Shown: positions 48,360 to 54,037 of the stretch, piece by piece | Layout of the letters: the number at the start of each line of letters is the position of its first letter | How positions within the stretch are numbered: the stretch's first letter is position 1 | NCBI GenBank assembly: GCA_016218495.1 | Contig: JACRDU010000128.1 | Span: forward strand, 1-54,037 | Reading direction: 5' to 3' | Length of the DNA: 54,037 bases | Source of the DNA: Elusimicrobiota bacterium | Lineage (GTDB): Bacteria > Elusimicrobiota > Elusimicrobia > UBA1565 | The notes under the pieces: model-generated | The model's input: only the letters and a program-made list of their open reading frames with translations | Database searches by the model: none | Told to the model about the DNA's origin: nothing | Translations under genes and position numbers: made by a program

Positions 48360-49403
48360 TTAGGGCCGGCGCGCCAGGACCTGGTCTTCGAGGCCGAAGA
48401 TGTGGGCGATGAGGGCGGTCCGGGCCCACATCCCGTTGCGTTCCTGGCGGAAGATGACGTTGCGCGGGTCGTCGTCGAGCTCGGCGGGCAGTTCCTCGCG
48501 GCGCGGCAGCGGGTGCATCACGACGGCGTGCTTGGGCAGCAGGGCCATCCGGGCCTTCGAGAGGAAGAACGGGGCATAATCGACGCCCTTCGACTCCCCG
48601 TCCTTGTCGTGCTCGTCCTGGATGCGGGTCATATACACGGCGTCCGCGTCCTTGAGCGCCGAGCCCAGGTCGTCGGTCTCGCGGAAGGGGATGCCGTGCG
48701 TGGTCAGGAACTCGAGGATGTCGGGCTTCATCCGGAAGGGCTCCGGCGCGGCGAAGGTGAGGCGGACGCCCTTGAAGTTCCGCATCAGCTGCGACAGCGA
48801 GCGCACCGTGCGGCCGCGCTTGAGGTCGCCGACCATCACGATGTGCTTGCCGTCCACCCCGCCGAGGTAGCGCTGGAGGCTGTAGATGTCGAGCAGGGCC
48901 TGGGTCGGGTGCTCGTCCGGGCCCGAGCCGGCGTTGATGACCGGCACCGGCCGGGGGCTCGTGTTGAGGACCCAGGCCGCGCGCTCGGCGACCCCCGCGC
49001 CGTTGTGGCGCATGATGATGAGGTCGACGTAGCTGGCGAAGGTCCGAATGGTGTCGTCGAGGGTCTCGCCCTTGACCTCCGACGAGGTCTTGAGGTCCCG
49101 GGTCTCCATCACGCGAAGGCCGAGGATATGGCAGGCGCTCATGTGGGAGAGGAAGGTCCGGGTCGAGGGCTGTGAGAAGTAGAGCATCACCCGCTTGTGG
49201 GCCAGGAGGCCGCGCAGGAAATCGTCCCCGGAACGGTCCTTCGTGATGTCCCGCATATGGTCGGCCAGCGCGCACAGGCGGTCGAGCAGCGGCCGGTCGA
49301 ACTGCGCCGCGAACAGGCAGTCATAGAGGCGGCCGTCGCGGCTGAAGAAGCCGAGCTTCTGCGCCGGCGGCTTGGCCGAGAGGGCCTCCCAGGACGCCGT
49401 CAT
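48360..49403 (-). CDS. pyrB: Aspartate carbamoyltransferase-like transcarbamylase
   Basis: A 347-residue protein of the aspartate/ornithine carbamoyltransferase family. The carbamoyl-phosphate loop reads YFSQPSTRTFLSH, where most family members have STRTR, so one Arg is Phe. Other motifs are DLIIMRHNGAG, DEHPTQALLDIYSL (HPTQ), VMVGDLKRGRTVRSL and HPLPRREELP. GDLKRGRT and HPLPR favour aspartate (pyrimidine synthesis) over ornithine as substrate. The length exceeds the usual ~310 because of an N-terminal extension of about 35 residues and an insertion near DEHDKDGESK. Its start overlaps the cupin gene (ATGA). Assignment to pyrB is likely, not certain. Confidence 0.82.
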   Translation of the reverse strand: MTASWEALSAKPPAQKLGFFSRDGRLYDCLFAAQFDRPLLDRLCALADHMRDITKDRSGDDFLRGLLAHKRVMLYFSQPSTRTFLSHMSACHILGLRVMETRDLKTSSEVKGETLDDTIRTFASYVDLIIMRHNGAGVAERAAWVLNTSPRPVPVINAGSGPDEHPTQALLDIYSLQRYLGGVDGKHIVMVGDLKRGRTVRSLSQLMRNFKGVRLTFAAPEPFRMKPDILEFLTTHGIPFRETDDLGSALKDADAVYMTRIQDEHDKDGESKGVDYAPFFLSKARMALLPKHAVVMHPLPRREELPAELDDDPRNVIFRQERNGMWARTALIAHIFGLEDQVLARRP

Positions 49404-49762
49404 GGCGGCCCCCCGGCACGGCCGTAGTCGTCGCTCAGGCGGACGATGTCGTCCTCGCCCAGGTAGTCGCCGAACTGCACCTCGATGATGACCAGGTCCA
49501 TGGCCCCGGGGTTGCTCAGGCGGTGGGCCGTGCCCACCGGGACGGTGATGACCCCTCCGGTCGGCACGGCTTGGTCCTTGCCGTCGAGGGTCACCAGGGC
49601 CGAGCCGTGCACGACGGTCCAGCGCTCGGCGCGCCGCGCGTGGGTCTGGTAGCTCAGGCGCTGGCCGGGACGGACCAGGATGCGCTTGACCTTGACCCCG
49701 GGCTCCTGGTGGAGCGTGTCCCAGCGGCCCCAGGGGCGCTCTTGGGAGAGGGGGTCGGGCAT
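49400..49762 (-). CDS. Cupin protein, mannose-6-phosphate isomerase type II-like
   Basis: A 120-residue single-domain cupin. It starts with RPWGRWDTLHQEPGVKVKRILVRPGQRLS, then THARRAERWTVVHGSALV and VPVGTAHRLSNPG, matching the C-terminal isomerase domain of bifunctional GDP-mannose pyrophosphorylase/phosphomannose isomerases. In the metal motif H-x-R-R-x-E the His and Glu are kept (HARRAE), as is the later His in GTAHR. It may isomerise mannose/fructose-6-phosphate or act as a small regulator; direct evidence is lacking. Co-translation with a transcarbamylase (ATGA) is odd and has no evident metabolic logic. Confidence 0.85.
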   Translation of the reverse strand: MPDPLSQERPWGRWDTLHQEPGVKVKRILVRPGQRLSYQTHARRAERWTVVHGSALVTLDGKDQAVPTGGVITVPVGTAHRLSNPGAMDLVIIEVQFGDYLGEDDIVRLSDDYGRAGGPP

Positions 49763-49781: not shown

Positions 49782-51071
49782 CTACTGCGGGATGAGCCCG
49801 TCGAAGCGGGGGGCCGTGGTGGACCCGGAGCCTTGGTTCTCGCTGCCCGCGTTAGTGTTCGTGTGGGTGAATGAGGCCTGAGCTTGATGGGCGGCGTTCC
49901 CGTTGAAGTTCTGGATGTCGATGACGGTCGAGTTCGTGATTCCGGCGCTGGACTCCGTTATCGAGATCCTCGCGGGAGCGTCGCCCGTGCCCCAGTACGT
50001 GGTCGGGATGTTGATGGTCTCGTTGACGGAGACGCCCCCTATCGTGTCGGTGTCGTTGACGGAGATGGCGGAGCCGAGCCCTCCGACCGTGGCCGCGCCG
50101 AAGTCGATGTTCATCTGCAGCTGCATCGACCCCGCGTTGTTGTTGGCGCAGGTGCTGTTGGCGCAGGTGGAGAGGTTCCAGGGGGCCGAATTGATGAAGT
50201 AGTGCGCCTGGCCCGACGGGATGGTGCGGAGGTTGTCCCAGGTCGCGACGCCGTCCCGGATGCCCCCGGTGGTCTGGATGGCTTGGATAGCGCTCTCCGT
50301 GCCGGGGCCCCCGGAGGCGGCGACGTCCGAGGCTGAGATGGCATTTTCCCCGCCGAGCGCGGTGCTTTCGCCCGACTCATCGGCGGCGCTCTCATCCATG
50401 GAGCCGGCCGCGGCCGTCTCGCCGCCGCCGGAGCCCGAGGCGGAGCCTCCGGCGTCCAGGCTGGCCAGGTCGGCGGGGGTCAGGGTGAAGGGGGGGGATG
50501 GAGGCTCGCCGGGGAGGATGACGGTGCCCGTGCCGGGTCGGTCCAGGTCGACCGAGCCTTCGCCGTTCGTGACGGTCACGGCGCCGGGCCTCTCGTCGGC
50601 GTTGTTGCCGGGCCCTGGTCCGAGGAGGGCCACCAAAGTCCGGTCGCCGTCGACGCTGCCGCCGGCGATGGTGCCGCGGATGCCGATGGTCCCCGAGGGG
50701 GTCTTCACCTTGATGTCGGGGTTCCGGCGGGCGGTCTTGCCGGTGACGAGGCGGAACACGCCCTTGAGGACCTCGGCGCGCACCTTGCCGGCGTCGGTGA
50801 AGGGGTCGTAGACGAACTCGTCGAGCACGACCTTGCTGTTCGGACCGACCGTGAAGACGGTTTCGTCGAGCAGCATCGCCTGCATGCGGCCCTTCGCGTC
50901 GGTGGCGACGGCGTCCTTGTGGAATACGGTGTCGCCGCTCCTGAGGGCGCGGGGCTTGGCCTCCGTCGTGGCCGTCACGCCGCCCGAGACGCCGCCGGCC
51001 GCCCCGATGCGCACGGGGGCGGCGTGGGAGGCCGCCGCCGCGGCCAGCAGCAGGGCGGCTATGGAGGTCAC
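49782..51071 (-). CDS. Secreted FecR-domain protein with beta-rich C-terminus (paralogue 2)
   Basis: GTG 51071 overlaps the stop of the preceding paralogue (GTGA) and gives signal peptide VTSIAALLLAAAAASHA; ATG 51095 would lie inside that gene. The 429-residue product has a FecR domain at about residues 20-155 (DTVFHKDAVATDAKGRMQAM, VFTVGPNSKVVLDEFVYDP, VRAEVLKGVFRLVTGK, VKTPSGTIGIRGT). A Gly/Ser/Glu-rich linker (about 195-250) and a beta-rich C-terminal part with MQLQMNIDFGAATVGGLGS follow. No lipobox and no membrane anchor are present, so this is not a sigma-regulator FecR. With the upstream Slam-like barrel it is a candidate surface-exported cargo. Confidence 0.83.
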   Translation of the reverse strand: MTSIAALLLAAAAASHAAPVRIGAAGGVSGGVTATTEAKPRALRSGDTVFHKDAVATDAKGRMQAMLLDETVFTVGPNSKVVLDEFVYDPFTDAGKVRAEVLKGVFRLVTGKTARRNPDIKVKTPSGTIGIRGTIAGGSVDGDRTLVALLGPGPGNNADERPGAVTVTNGEGSVDLDRPGTGTVILPGEPPSPPFTLTPADLASLDAGGSASGSGGGETAAAGSMDESAADESGESTALGGENAISASDVAASGGPGTESAIQAIQTTGGIRDGVATWDNLRTIPSGQAHYFINSAPWNLSTCANSTCANNNAGSMQLQMNIDFGAATVGGLGSAISVNDTDTIGGVSVNETINIPTTYWGTGDAPARISITESSAGITNSTVIDIQNFNGNAAHQAQASFTHTNTNAGSENQGSGSTTAPRFDGLIPQ

Positions 51072-52444
51072 GGCGGGCAGGACCCCGAGATGCACGGGGA
51101 GGTCACGGCCCCGGTGGCCGTGGCCGGCCCGTTGGTGTATTGCAGGTTGCCGGTCACCGAGTGGCCCCCGCTACCGAAGGCGAATCCGCTGCCGTTGAAG
51201 TTCGGGTCGCTGCCGCTGTAATTCGTCCCTTGGACCATCTTCGCCTCGCCGCTGAGGGCGGCGAAGCTGGTCAGGGGGATGTTGGAGCCGGGCGTCTCCG
51301 CGCTGATGAGGAGCGGCCCGCCGGTGAAGGCGAAGTGGGACGAGGTGCCCCCTCCTCCCAACTCCTTCGTCCCCCAGTTCACATTGAAGTGGAGGGTGAA
51401 GGTCCCGGAGCCCCCCGTGGAGCAGGCGCCGCCGGAGCAGCTGTAGCTGCCGCTGCCGCTGTAGAACCCCGAGCCGCTCTGCAGGGTCGCCCGGAGGTCC
51501 TCCCAGGAGAACGCCCCGCCGCCGGCCAGGATGGACTGCGAGCCGAAGACACTGGTCTCGGTGTTCTGGTTCTGGTCCTCGCTCAGGACGATGGTCTCGC
51601 CCGCGCCGGCTTGGCCTGCCGCGGTGTCCTGCCCAGAATCAGCGGACGCGGTTGCCTCATCGGACCCCCCGCCTGATGTCCCGGGAGCGCTGCCCGTCGT
51701 GTTGTTTTCGGACCCCCCGCCTGATGTCCCGGGAGCGCTGCCCGTCGTGTTGTTCGCGGTCGTCGCGGCGGCGTTGGACTGGCTCGGGGGAGGCGGCGGC
51801 GGGGTGGGGTCCAACTCCGCCATGGCCTCGGGGGACAGGGGGAAGGGCGGCGTCGGGGGCTGTCCTTCGCTGATGCGGGTGGCGTAGCCGGGCCGGTCGA
51901 TGGTGACCGACTCCCCGGCATTCTCGACGACCACCACACCGGGGCGCTCGTCGGCGTTGTTGTCGGCGCCCGGGCCGAGCAGGGCAATCAAGGACGAACC
52001 GTCGTCCTCGACCTTCCCTCCGACGATGGTGCCCCGGATGCCGAGGGTGCCGACGGGGAGCTTGATCTTGAGGTTCTCGGGATGGCGCCGGGCGGACTTC
52101 CCCGAGACCAGGCGGAAAATCCCCTTGGTCACCTCGGCGGTGACCTTGCCGGCGTCGGTGAAGGGGTCGTAGACGAACTCGTCGAGCGTGACCTTGCTCT
52201 TTGGGCCGACCGTGAAGATGGTCTCGTCGAGGAGCATCGCCTGCATGCGCCCCTGGGCGTCGGTGGTGACGGCGTCCTTGTGGAAGACCTGGGAGCCGCT
52301 GGCCAGGCTGCGCGCGGCGGCCTGGGGCGCTGCGGCGGTGACGCCGCCGCTGACGGCGCCGGCGGCCCCGATGCGCAGCAGTTCGGCTTGCGCGGGCGCG
52401 GCCAGGGCGAGGGAGGACAGGAGGACGATGGTATTCGCGTGCAT
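51068..52444 (-). CDS. Secreted FecR-domain protein with beta-rich C-terminus (paralogue 1)
   Basis: ATG 52444 is preceded by GAGGTGA five bases away; GTG 52453 lies upstream of that site. Signal peptide MHANTIVLLSSLALAAPAQA. The FecR domain (QVFHKDAVTTDAQGRMQAM, FTVGPKSKVTLDEFVYDP, GTLGIRGTIVGG) is very close to paralogue 2, and the same DNERPG-type segment (NNADERPGVVVVENA) follows. The linker has polyproline and two copies of a 16-residue unit. The C-terminal ~180 residues are Gly/Ser-rich strands: GTFTLHFNVNWGTKELGGGG, FAFTGGPLLISAETPG, GFAFGSGGHSVTGNLQY. These resemble the handle/barrel domains of Slam-dependent cargo such as TbpB or HpuA; resemblance only. Confidence 0.83.
   Translation of the reverse strand: MHANTIVLLSSLALAAPAQAELLRIGAAGAVSGGVTAAAPQAAARSLASGSQVFHKDAVTTDAQGRMQAMLLDETIFTVGPKSKVTLDEFVYDPFTDAGKVTAEVTKGIFRLVSGKSARRHPENLKIKLPVGTLGIRGTIVGGKVEDDGSSLIALLGPGADNNADERPGVVVVENAGESVTIDRPGYATRISEGQPPTPPFPLSPEAMAELDPTPPPPPPSQSNAAATTANNTTGSAPGTSGGGSENNTTGSAPGTSGGGSDEATASADSGQDTAAGQAGAGETIVLSEDQNQNTETSVFGSQSILAGGGAFSWEDLRATLQSGSGFYSGSGSYSCSGGACSTGGSGTFTLHFNVNWGTKELGGGGTSSHFAFTGGPLLISAETPGSNIPLTSFAALSGEAKMVQGTNYSGSDPNFNGSGFAFGSGGHSVTGNLQYTNGPATATGAVTSPCISGSCPP
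51661..51754. repeat. 48-bp tandem duplication in the linker of FecR paralogue 1
   Basis: Two copies of a 46-base identical block, period 48 bases (51661-51706 and 51709-51754), encode two NNTTGSAPGTSGGGS units. Identity at DNA level implies a recent duplication. Confidence 0.85.
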
Positions 52445-52454
52445 GGCGGTCACC

Positions 52455-53831
52455 TCAGTAGTCCCAGCGGTAGGTCAGCATGCCGTTCACCTTGTTGTTG
52501 GTGTAGGCGTAGTTTGTGATGTTCGAGTTCGCGTGCAGGTACTCGTAGGAGACGGTCAGCAACAGCGGCGCGAAGGGTTTGCCGAGGAAGCCCAGCGGCT
52601 GGCCGAAGGTCCAGGACACCCGGGTCTTGTCGTCTTTGCGCTCCTGGCGCGCGATGGCGAGCTCGGGGGCGGCGTAGCGGTCGAGGTCGACGTTGAGCCC
52701 GCTCAGGAGGAAGCGCCCCTTGCCGAGCAGCCAGGCGTGGGTCAGCCCGACGGTGTTGCGCTCGTAGGCGTTGTACATCTTGCGGGCGTCCTTCTGCTGG
52801 TAGCCCGTCTCCGCGGTAAGGCGCTGGGTCGGGGTCAGGGTGACGATGGCTCCGCCGCGCAGGGTGGACTCGTTGCCGGTGCGCTCGGTGGCGGTGGGGA
52901 TGTCGCTCGTGCGGATGTGGTCGTAGACCATGACCTGGCCCTGTCCGAACACGGCCAGGCGCTTGGAGAGGCGGCGTTCGACCCGCACGCGCCCGCCCCT
53001 GGTCCTGAGGTAGGTCTCCTCGGAGAGGCGCACGTGGTCGAAGACCAGGGCGGGGGTCACCGTGAGGCGCCCGGACTGGAACTCGGGGCCGGCCGAGAAC
53101 GAGTAGGCCTGCAGGTCCAGGGTGTTGACCGTGGTCTGCTCGGCCCGGTAGTAGGAGAGGTCCGCGACGAGGGCGCGCGCGAAGTTCCCGCGCAGGTCCC
53201 GGCGGATCCCGGCGGCCGCGAGGAACAGCACGCTGGTGTCGTCGGTGGCGCGGCCGGTGGTGAGGTTGACCGGCACGCCGCCGAAGAGGCGCTGGTTCGA
53301 GGACGGGCCGGCGTTGCGGTTGTCGTCGAACTGGTAGCCGACGCCGAGCGTCCCGTGCAGGTGCGTCAGGCGGGTCTTCTGGTCGACGAGCCTGATGTAC
53401 TCCTCGGCCTCGGCCTTGACCGCGCCGGAGGCCTGTCCCTTCACGATCTCGAGCTCGCGCCGGGCCTCGGGGAGGCTGTCGAGGCGGTAGAGCACGAGGG
53501 CGTAGGTCAGGCGCACGCGGGTTAGGGAGGGCTTCACCATCAGGATGCGCTCGAGGGTGGCCGAGGCGCCCTTGAGGTCGCCGCGCTCGACCTGGGCCTT
53601 CGCCCAGCGGTAGTTGAGGTCGACGTCGTCGGGCTTGGCGAGGACCATCTCGTAGGTGACGGCGCCGGCGTCCTCGACGGCGCGGCGGGCCTTGGCGTCC
53701 TGCGCGGCCGACTCCCCCTTCGAGCGGGCTTCAGCGGCCTGGGCGGCCTTCCGGGACTCCTCATCCAGGTCCTGCGGCCAGGCGGGTGCCGCGACGAGAA
53801 TGGTCAGAATCAGCGCCATCAGGTTCTTCAT
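52455..53831 (-). CDS. TPR plus outer-membrane beta-barrel protein, Slam/DUF560-like
   Basis: ATG 53831 starts signal peptide MKNLMALILTILVAAPAWP; the frame runs further upstream only through direct-repeat DNA. The 458-residue protein has a charged helical stretch, then TPR-like helices (residues about 55-155: VDLNYRWAKAQVERGDLKGASATLE, TRVRLTYALVLYRLDSLPEARRELE). After VDQKTRLTHLHGTLGVGYQFDDNRN comes a barrel of about 14 strands to the end (VNGMLTYRWDY). A periplasmic TPR domain joined to a C-terminal barrel is the Slam layout (surface lipoprotein assembly modifier, type XI secretion). The two FecR-type secreted proteins follow after 10 and -4 bases. Confidence 0.8.
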   Translation of the reverse strand: MKNLMALILTILVAAPAWPQDLDEESRKAAQAAEARSKGESAAQDAKARRAVEDAGAVTYEMVLAKPDDVDLNYRWAKAQVERGDLKGASATLERILMVKPSLTRVRLTYALVLYRLDSLPEARRELEIVKGQASGAVKAEAEEYIRLVDQKTRLTHLHGTLGVGYQFDDNRNAGPSSNQRLFGGVPVNLTTGRATDDTSVLFLAAAGIRRDLRGNFARALVADLSYYRAEQTTVNTLDLQAYSFSAGPEFQSGRLTVTPALVFDHVRLSEETYLRTRGGRVRVERRLSKRLAVFGQGQVMVYDHIRTSDIPTATERTGNESTLRGGAIVTLTPTQRLTAETGYQQKDARKMYNAYERNTVGLTHAWLLGKGRFLLSGLNVDLDRYAAPELAIARQERKDDKTRVSWTFGQPLGFLGKPFAPLLLTVSYEYLHANSNITNYAYTNNKVNGMLTYRWDY

Positions 53832-53905
53832 GGTTAACCCCTGCTCCTTAATAAAGAGTCCCGATGGTCCCAAATCAGGCGGGGACCGGTCAAGACGCAG
53901 ACTTG

Positions 53906-53961
53906 TCCAATACAGAATGAGCCTGAAATCCGGGCGATTCCAACACAGAATGAGCCTGAAA
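53906..53961. repeat. Two 23-bp direct repeats, 33 bp apart, upstream of the Slam-like gene
   Basis: 53906-53928 and 53939-53961 match at 22 of 23 positions (TCCAA(T/C)ACAGAATGAGC...). A 33-base period is about three helical turns, as for paired activator sites. They lie 75-130 bases upstream of the start codon, where no good sigma70 promoter is visible. Confidence 0.7.
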
Positions 53962-53989
53962 GAGGCACGGCGGAGGGCCCCCAAAGGAT

Positions 53990-54016
53990 CGAGCGAACCC
54001 CGCGGGGGTCCGCTCG
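53990..54016. terminator. GC-rich hairpin, possible terminator of a gene beyond the window
   Basis: Bases 53990-54001 and 54005-54016 pair at 11 of 12 positions around GCG. On the minus strand ATCCTTT follows, so it may end transcription of a minus-strand gene to the right. The remainder to 54037 shows nothing else. Confidence 0.4.
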
Positions 54017-54037
54017 GGGTCGGCGCTACCCGCGCCG

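Follow-up and report, generated by a model that had tools for sequence, protein, structure and literature searches.

In a 54,037-nucleotide stretch of DNA, referred to here as the window and forming one whole contig of a 4.1-Mb Elusimicrobiota draft genome, we identified a gene for a Slam-like outer membrane protein followed by two genes for secreted FecR-domain proteins that end in a cargo-type beta-barrel (Table 1). This three-gene observation is confirmed, and computation establishes the domain make-up of the products, how the exporter and the cargo barrel fold, and the conserved adjacency of exporter, FecR, and CHASE2 genes in relatives. Reading the locus as a Slam-like exporter with its cargo is an interpretation supported by these data, with secretion through the pore being predicted, and we consider this exporter-cargo assignment well supported and likely. 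The best explanation for the locus, combining a type XI exporter, two dedicated cargo proteins, and coupling of FecR to CHASE2 receptors, appears probable, and we favor it with some reserve.

Table 1. Features of the exporter-FecR locus and the adjoining contig end (window coordinates)
Feature	Position	Strand	Description and basis
Slam-like outer membrane protein gene (exporter)	52455..53831	-	Signal peptide, TPR helices, 14-strand beta-barrel; SlipAM match, AlphaFold
Promoter and leader of exporter gene	53832..53898	-	Sequence compared with relatives
FecR-barrel protein 1	51068..52444	-	Signal peptide without lipobox, FecR aa 22-210, linker, C-terminal 8-strand barrel
TbpB-like barrel (eight strands) at the C-terminus of protein 1	51074..51571	-	AlphaFold, PDB matches
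FecR-barrel protein 2 (paralogue)	49782..51071	-	Signal peptide without lipobox, FecR aa 20-203, linker, barrel
Barrel at the C-terminus of protein 2 (domain family shared with protein 1)	49797..50297	-	Family profile
End of repeated insertion element	53899..54037	.	139 nt capping 12 contig ends of the genome

The probable exporter and its FecR-barrel partners

The exporter matches the Pfam domain PF04575 SlipAM (DUF560/Slam) over nearly the whole domain with 29.9 bits (cut-off 22) and, weakly, PF24575 TPR_Slam. Its TPR helices occupy approximately residues 54 to 152 and its barrel residues 156 to 457, and in an AlphaFold model built from an alignment with 32 relatives (pLDDT 89.5) the helices are followed by exactly 14 long strands. 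Slam has been described as a TPR region plus a 14-strand barrel (PMC5449769), and PgaA is distinguished by 16 strands (PMC8406197). Four features that mark Slam/DUF560 exporters, i.e., a SlipAM domain, N-terminal TPRs, a 14-strand barrel, and a linked gene encoding a Sec signal and a C-terminal eight-strand barrel, were found for the window gene, and the 4.1-Mb draft contains no other SlipAM match. TPR matches were detected in all 32 relatives, with SlipAM matches at an E-value of 0.01 in just 13, and most exporters sampled from other groups had no Pfam SlipAM match, so that such distant members of the exporter family form a divergent branch. Comparison of the exporter profile with solved structures yielded generic TPR matches and nothing more specific. 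The closest named relatives of the window genome are Elusimicrobia metagenome-assembled genomes, one of which encodes a 69% identical exporter.

Both partner proteins match PF04773 FecR above the Pfam cut-off (29.2 bits for protein 1 and 43.6 bits for protein 2). As read from the sequence, their signal peptides end in AxA and the lipobox cysteine is absent; among 102 cargo proteins, lipobox motif matches occurred in four, all within signal peptides. The linkers of both proteins are enriched in G, S, P, and T, and that of protein 1 comprises about 80 residues. Gene spacing is operon-like, with about 10 bases between the exporter gene and the gene for protein 1 and an overlap of 4 bases between the two FecR genes. 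In Pfam searches neither window protein matched PF01298 or PF08794, domains that together with a lipobox mark Slam-dependent surface lipoproteins of the TbpB family; Magnetospirillum relatives did give such a match. The FecR genes are followed, nearly without gaps, by a mannose-6-phosphate-isomerase-type cupin gene and a carbamoyltransferase-like gene (window 48360-49762), both of which are conserved in the closest relatives.

The C-terminal domain of protein 1 was modeled with eight strands (AlphaFold pLDDT 89.1, pTM 0.81). In a Foldseek search with this model, the best 50 of 350,542 PDB chains were all TbpB, LbpB, NHBA, or fHbp, that is, known Slam-dependent cargo or NHBA. E-values were modest (best 8.5e-4), but the matches are strikingly specific. 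Beta-helix or low-complexity C-termini were ruled out by these uniformly TbpB-like best PDB matches and by a profile that was built up from the C-terminus in the window and gave no match among 1,900 shuffled sequences. The same profile recovered 74 partner proteins in Elusimicrobia, Omnitrophota, Deltaproteobacteria, and Alphaproteobacteria, matched the C-terminus of protein 2 with 111.7 bits, and among other ORFs hit solely fragments of two FecR loci (L069 and L091). The first-pass annotation had described three ORFs forming effectively one operon, in which a TPR plus beta-barrel protein of Slam/DUF560 layout accompanies two paralogous secreted proteins lacking a lipobox, each with a signal peptide, a FecR domain, a Gly/Ser-containing linker, and a beta-rich C-terminus recalling Slam cargo barrels; this description is borne out, and the checks suggested along with it turned out in its favor.

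The gene immediately behind the orthologous exporter gene in Magnetospirillum fulvum and M. molischianum encodes a FecR protein that ends in a TbpB_B_D domain (45.7 and 47.5 bits against a cut-off of 26) and matches NCBI slam_lipo with an E-value of 1e-14, falling short of that model's own cut-off. These proteins (L142:9386-11161, plus strand, and L158:9374-11077, plus strand) thereby join FecR to a canonical TbpB_B_D barrel, again with the lipobox absent. A matching FecR/TbpB-type pairing was seen with subthreshold scores in Paracoccus and Shinella cassettes, and TbpB_B_D was recognized by sequence in alphaproteobacterial relatives only. When profiles of the window-type barrel and of the two TbpB barrels from Magnetospirillum were compared, the similarity was not significant, and the tie of the window barrel to TbpB thus rests on fold rather than sequence. 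The Magnetospirillum cargo was searched for in viral contigs, where none was detected. Barrel number also varies: nine tandem TbpB-like barrels follow one FecR domain in L073:2778-7784 (minus strand), and at least five do so in L091:7912-11112 (plus strand). In five Omnitrophota loci (L105, L106, L108, L110, and L136), a second FecR protein of about 260 to 330 residues is too short to hold a C-terminal barrel.

The exporter gene starts with the ATG at 53831, preceded by AAGGAG, and a TTGGGACCAT...TATTAAGG stretch of its promoter and leader is common to two same-genus relatives. The first-pass annotation had extended the module to 53961, which is too far and reaches into an upstream repeat. The 139 bases with which the window ends recur at 11 other contig ends of the genome, identical in all copies but one (99%), and the border of this element, following ...GGACAAGTCT, is sharp; in the relative locus L205, a matching element end adjoins what by eye is a transposase-like ORF. 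In 11 copies, likewise read by eye, the unique flank appears to start some 4 nt upstream of a -35-like sequence, from which the distance to a -10-like hexamer is almost constant, and the insertion element may target promoters. Direct repeats of 23 nt ahead of the exporter gene belong to this element and were ruled out as regulatory sites.

Conserved gene neighborhood of the exporter

For synteny analysis, 69 loci were fetched independently and chosen on the exporter alone; they contain 70 exporter genes, five of which lie at contig ends. Of the 65 exporter genes with contig room, 62 have a FecR gene directly behind them in the same orientation; for the other three it follows after a 323-base gap (L113), is convergent (L160), or is absent (L151 only). 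The pair spans Elusimicrobia (Elusimicrobiota), Omnitrophota, Deltaproteobacteria, Myxococcales, and Alphaproteobacteria, and in relatives from the same order a FecR gene directly follows every exporter gene that has contig room. Among 57 relatives, 31 possess both exporter and FecR partner, one the exporter only, owing to a gene truncated by a contig end, two the partner only, and 23 neither (Fisher p of about 1e-12, uncorrected for kinship). Three plasmid records repeat the pattern, two independent ones in which the exporter bears the label hypothetical protein and a third in which it is listed as a tetratricopeptide repeat protein.

A third gene recurs beside the pair. In 51 of the 69 loci, exporter and FecR genes have at their side the gene for a CHASE2 receptor, in most cases a nucleotide cyclase, in one of several orientations: divergent in Elusimicrobia, downstream in Thalassospira, and converging in Omnitrophota. 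For the representatives that were run against it, Pfam confirmed CHASE2 together with a cyclase domain. In one Methylophilaceae locus (L160:9212-12734), it found CHASE2 together with a SpoIIE phosphatase; there a phosphatase instead of a cyclase is fused to CHASE2, and the FecR gene is convergent with the exporter gene. Every Elusimicrobia relative taken from a named record has an adjacent CHASE2 gene, and in the plasmid loci examined, FecR genes and CHASE2 receptor genes are neighbors in six of six cases. CHASE2 is missing from the Magnetospirillum loci and from some others, and 12 other CHASE2 genes in the same genome group adjoin neither FecR nor exporter genes. The window holds no CHASE2 gene, nor was a close orthologue found elsewhere in the draft genome. 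The assembly breaks where same-genus relatives carry the divergent CHASE2 gene, and its absence here is thus no evidence of loss. The conservation of FecR-Slam neighbors in other genomes, which the first-pass annotation had proposed to check, holds across phyla; that annotation had seen FecR solely as an unusual cargo domain and had missed the CHASE2 cyclase, a conserved neighbor which points to signaling.

Further genes were noticed around some of these loci. A conserved ORF upstream of the exporter in L138, L139, L146, and L150, with the N-terminus MAFKVKFWGVRGSIACPSP, looks metallo-hydrolase-like by eye, and in Ensifer (L189:9916-10821) a gene with a metallo-beta-lactamase fold according to Pfam adjoins the CHASE2 cyclase gene. 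Both are candidate cyclic-nucleotide phosphodiesterases.

Proposed export, FecR retention, and signaling

We propose that the locus encodes a type XI (Slam-like) outer membrane exporter and two dedicated non-lipidated cargo proteins, which would be made with a Sec signal peptide. The exporter may recognize the C-terminal TbpB-like barrel and carry it across, or display it on, the outer membrane, and the N-terminal FecR domain would partner a CHASE2-type inner membrane receptor, mostly a nucleotide cyclase encoded next door. The flexible linker would let the barrel reach the surface with FecR remaining periplasmic, at least for a time, and through FecR the cyclase might be informed of the export state or of a surface ligand. 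Export through the pore, the barrel as export signal, FecR retention, and FecR-CHASE2 contact are all steps that we infer. We put forward, tentatively, that the type XI translocon might serve as a trans-envelope receptor, with the barrel threaded to the surface, FecR kept back as a periplasmic plug and reporter, and the CHASE2 cyclase reading export or ligand binding out as cyclic nucleotide.

The sole PDB match of the FecR region was 5ix9, 'Antifreeze protein' (E-value 0.0025), which we take to be a retention module from an ice-binding RTX adhesin. The NCBIfam model retention_LapA (NF033682) matched 23 of 50 members at an E-value of 0.01 or lower (best 7e-6), under its curated cut-off, and the window FecR protein reached 18.1 bits, below the cut-off of 50 that would assign it to the LapA type. 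At the sequence level, this weak likeness to adhesin retention modules is no more than suggestive of periplasmic retention. Counting against the model, SMc02177 of Sinorhizobium meliloti, a FecR protein whose gene adjoins that of CyaD1, is a pathway output and dispensable for signal perception (PMC5498481).

Such a cAMP-controlled output that is not needed for sensing would suit the main rival of a retained FecR domain, namely, plain type XI secretion, with the FecR-barrel proteins fully exported as soluble proteins, at the cell surface or outside the cell, and the CHASE2 cyclase merely controlling operon expression. Signal peptide and barrel fit this reading as well, soluble non-lipidated T11SS cargo is known (PMC8406197), and CHASE2 is missing from some loci. 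However, FecR is also paired with CHASE2 receptors where a LysM domain ties it to peptidoglycan (PMC5192318) and where it sits beside OmpA, both of which argue for a periplasmic role of FecR, and CHASE2 adjacency is kept through several gene arrangements. We regard plain secretion, with the cyclase controlling expression, as rather unlikely.

Another TPR-barrel pore, such as a porin or a polysaccharide exporter of the PgaA, PelB, or BcsC type, might instead accompany FecR proteins that are purely periplasmic sensors. This would accord with the Foldseek ranking for the whole exporter model, in which OmpG, PelB, and BcsC come top, although the matches listed contained no structure of Slam, and with the several family members that have no Pfam SlipAM match. 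Against it stand the curated SlipAM match, the 14 instead of 16 strands, and the cargo-type TbpB barrel that structure or Pfam revealed in the partner for each lineage so examined, and we judge this alternative improbable. FecR genes are not rare, with 12 FecR domains in the window genome, and an unrelated porin might have come to lie beside them by chance, but direct same-strand adjacency in 62 of 65 loci across phyla makes this so exceedingly improbable that conserved synteny rules it out.

Under the favored reading of a type XI exporter with dedicated FecR cargo, Slam-type export would extend beyond Proteobacteria to Elusimicrobiota and Omnitrophota, and a specific class of cargo could be predicted for uncharacterized DUF560 clusters. 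FecR-domain proteins and CHASE2 receptors, both of which have long lacked known partners or ligands, would gain a testable common system, and the cultured hosts Thalassospira, Magnetospirillum, Shinella, and Paracoccus make it directly accessible to experiments. If FecR indeed stays periplasmic, protein export would be linked to second-messenger signaling, and a secretion system would have been turned into a signaling device.

Comparison with known systems

Type XI secretion systems (Slam1/Slam2 and HrpB, with the cargo proteins TbpB, fHbp, HpuA, and HrpC) share with the locus described here the TPR region plus 14-strand SlipAM barrel and a neighboring Sec-exported cargo protein with a C-terminal eight-strand barrel, and soluble cargo is known among them (PMC5449769, PMC8406197). 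They differ in that the cargo described here bears FecR without a lipobox or iron-binding handle and can contain up to nine tandem barrels, that a CHASE2 cyclase is encoded nearby, with no TonB genes in the immediate neighborhoods read, and that the system also occurs outside Proteobacteria. FecR is absent from two T11SS surveys and the Slam family paper (PMC8406197, PMC12282271, PMC5449769). In Campylobacterota, a cAMP cluster comprising a CHASE2 adenylate cyclase, a phosphodiesterase, a FecR-domain outer membrane protein, and a TPR protein was proposed to form one signaling pathway (PMC9239204). Three kinds of genes cluster there as they do here; however, the authors named neither the TPR protein Slam-like nor the FecR protein a barrel cargo. 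The first-pass annotation did not know the FecR-Slam pairing to be described; part of the cluster had been noted in Campylobacterota, and for the Slam/TbpB identity we found no description.

FecR anti-sigma regulators have the PF04773 domain in common with the window proteins, which instead carry a Sec signal peptide and have no anti-sigma domain, with no transmembrane segment seen; such a regulatory role was ruled out, since PF04773 alone was found, with a signal peptide ahead of it. The LapA-type retention module shares weak sequence similarity with the FecR region and the idea of an N-terminal periplasmic plug, but LapA is exported by type I secretion and the FecR match lies under the curated cut-off. 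In the Burkholderia BiofilmReg operon, a LysM-FecR protein is encoded together with a CHASE2 histidine kinase (PMC5192318), placing FecR beside a CHASE2 receptor as here; in contrast, its anchor is LysM and not an exportable barrel, the receptor is a kinase and not a cyclase, and an exporter is absent.

The S. meliloti outer membrane barrel NsrA acts through the CHASE2 cyclases CyaK, CyaD1, and CyaD2 (PMC7529298) and in this resembles the proposed signaling from an outer membrane barrel to CHASE2 cyclases. A S. meliloti plasmid ORF (L192:5237-8866, plus strand) combines FecR, TPRs, and an outer membrane barrel in one 1,209-residue chain directly before a CHASE2 cyclase gene, and by size and layout it is a candidate match to NsrA. 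Whereas NsrA is a single chain of about 1,200 residues, the TPR-barrel and FecR parts are separate proteins here; by analogy, NsrA would be the one-chain counterpart of the trans-envelope receptor that we tentatively propose.
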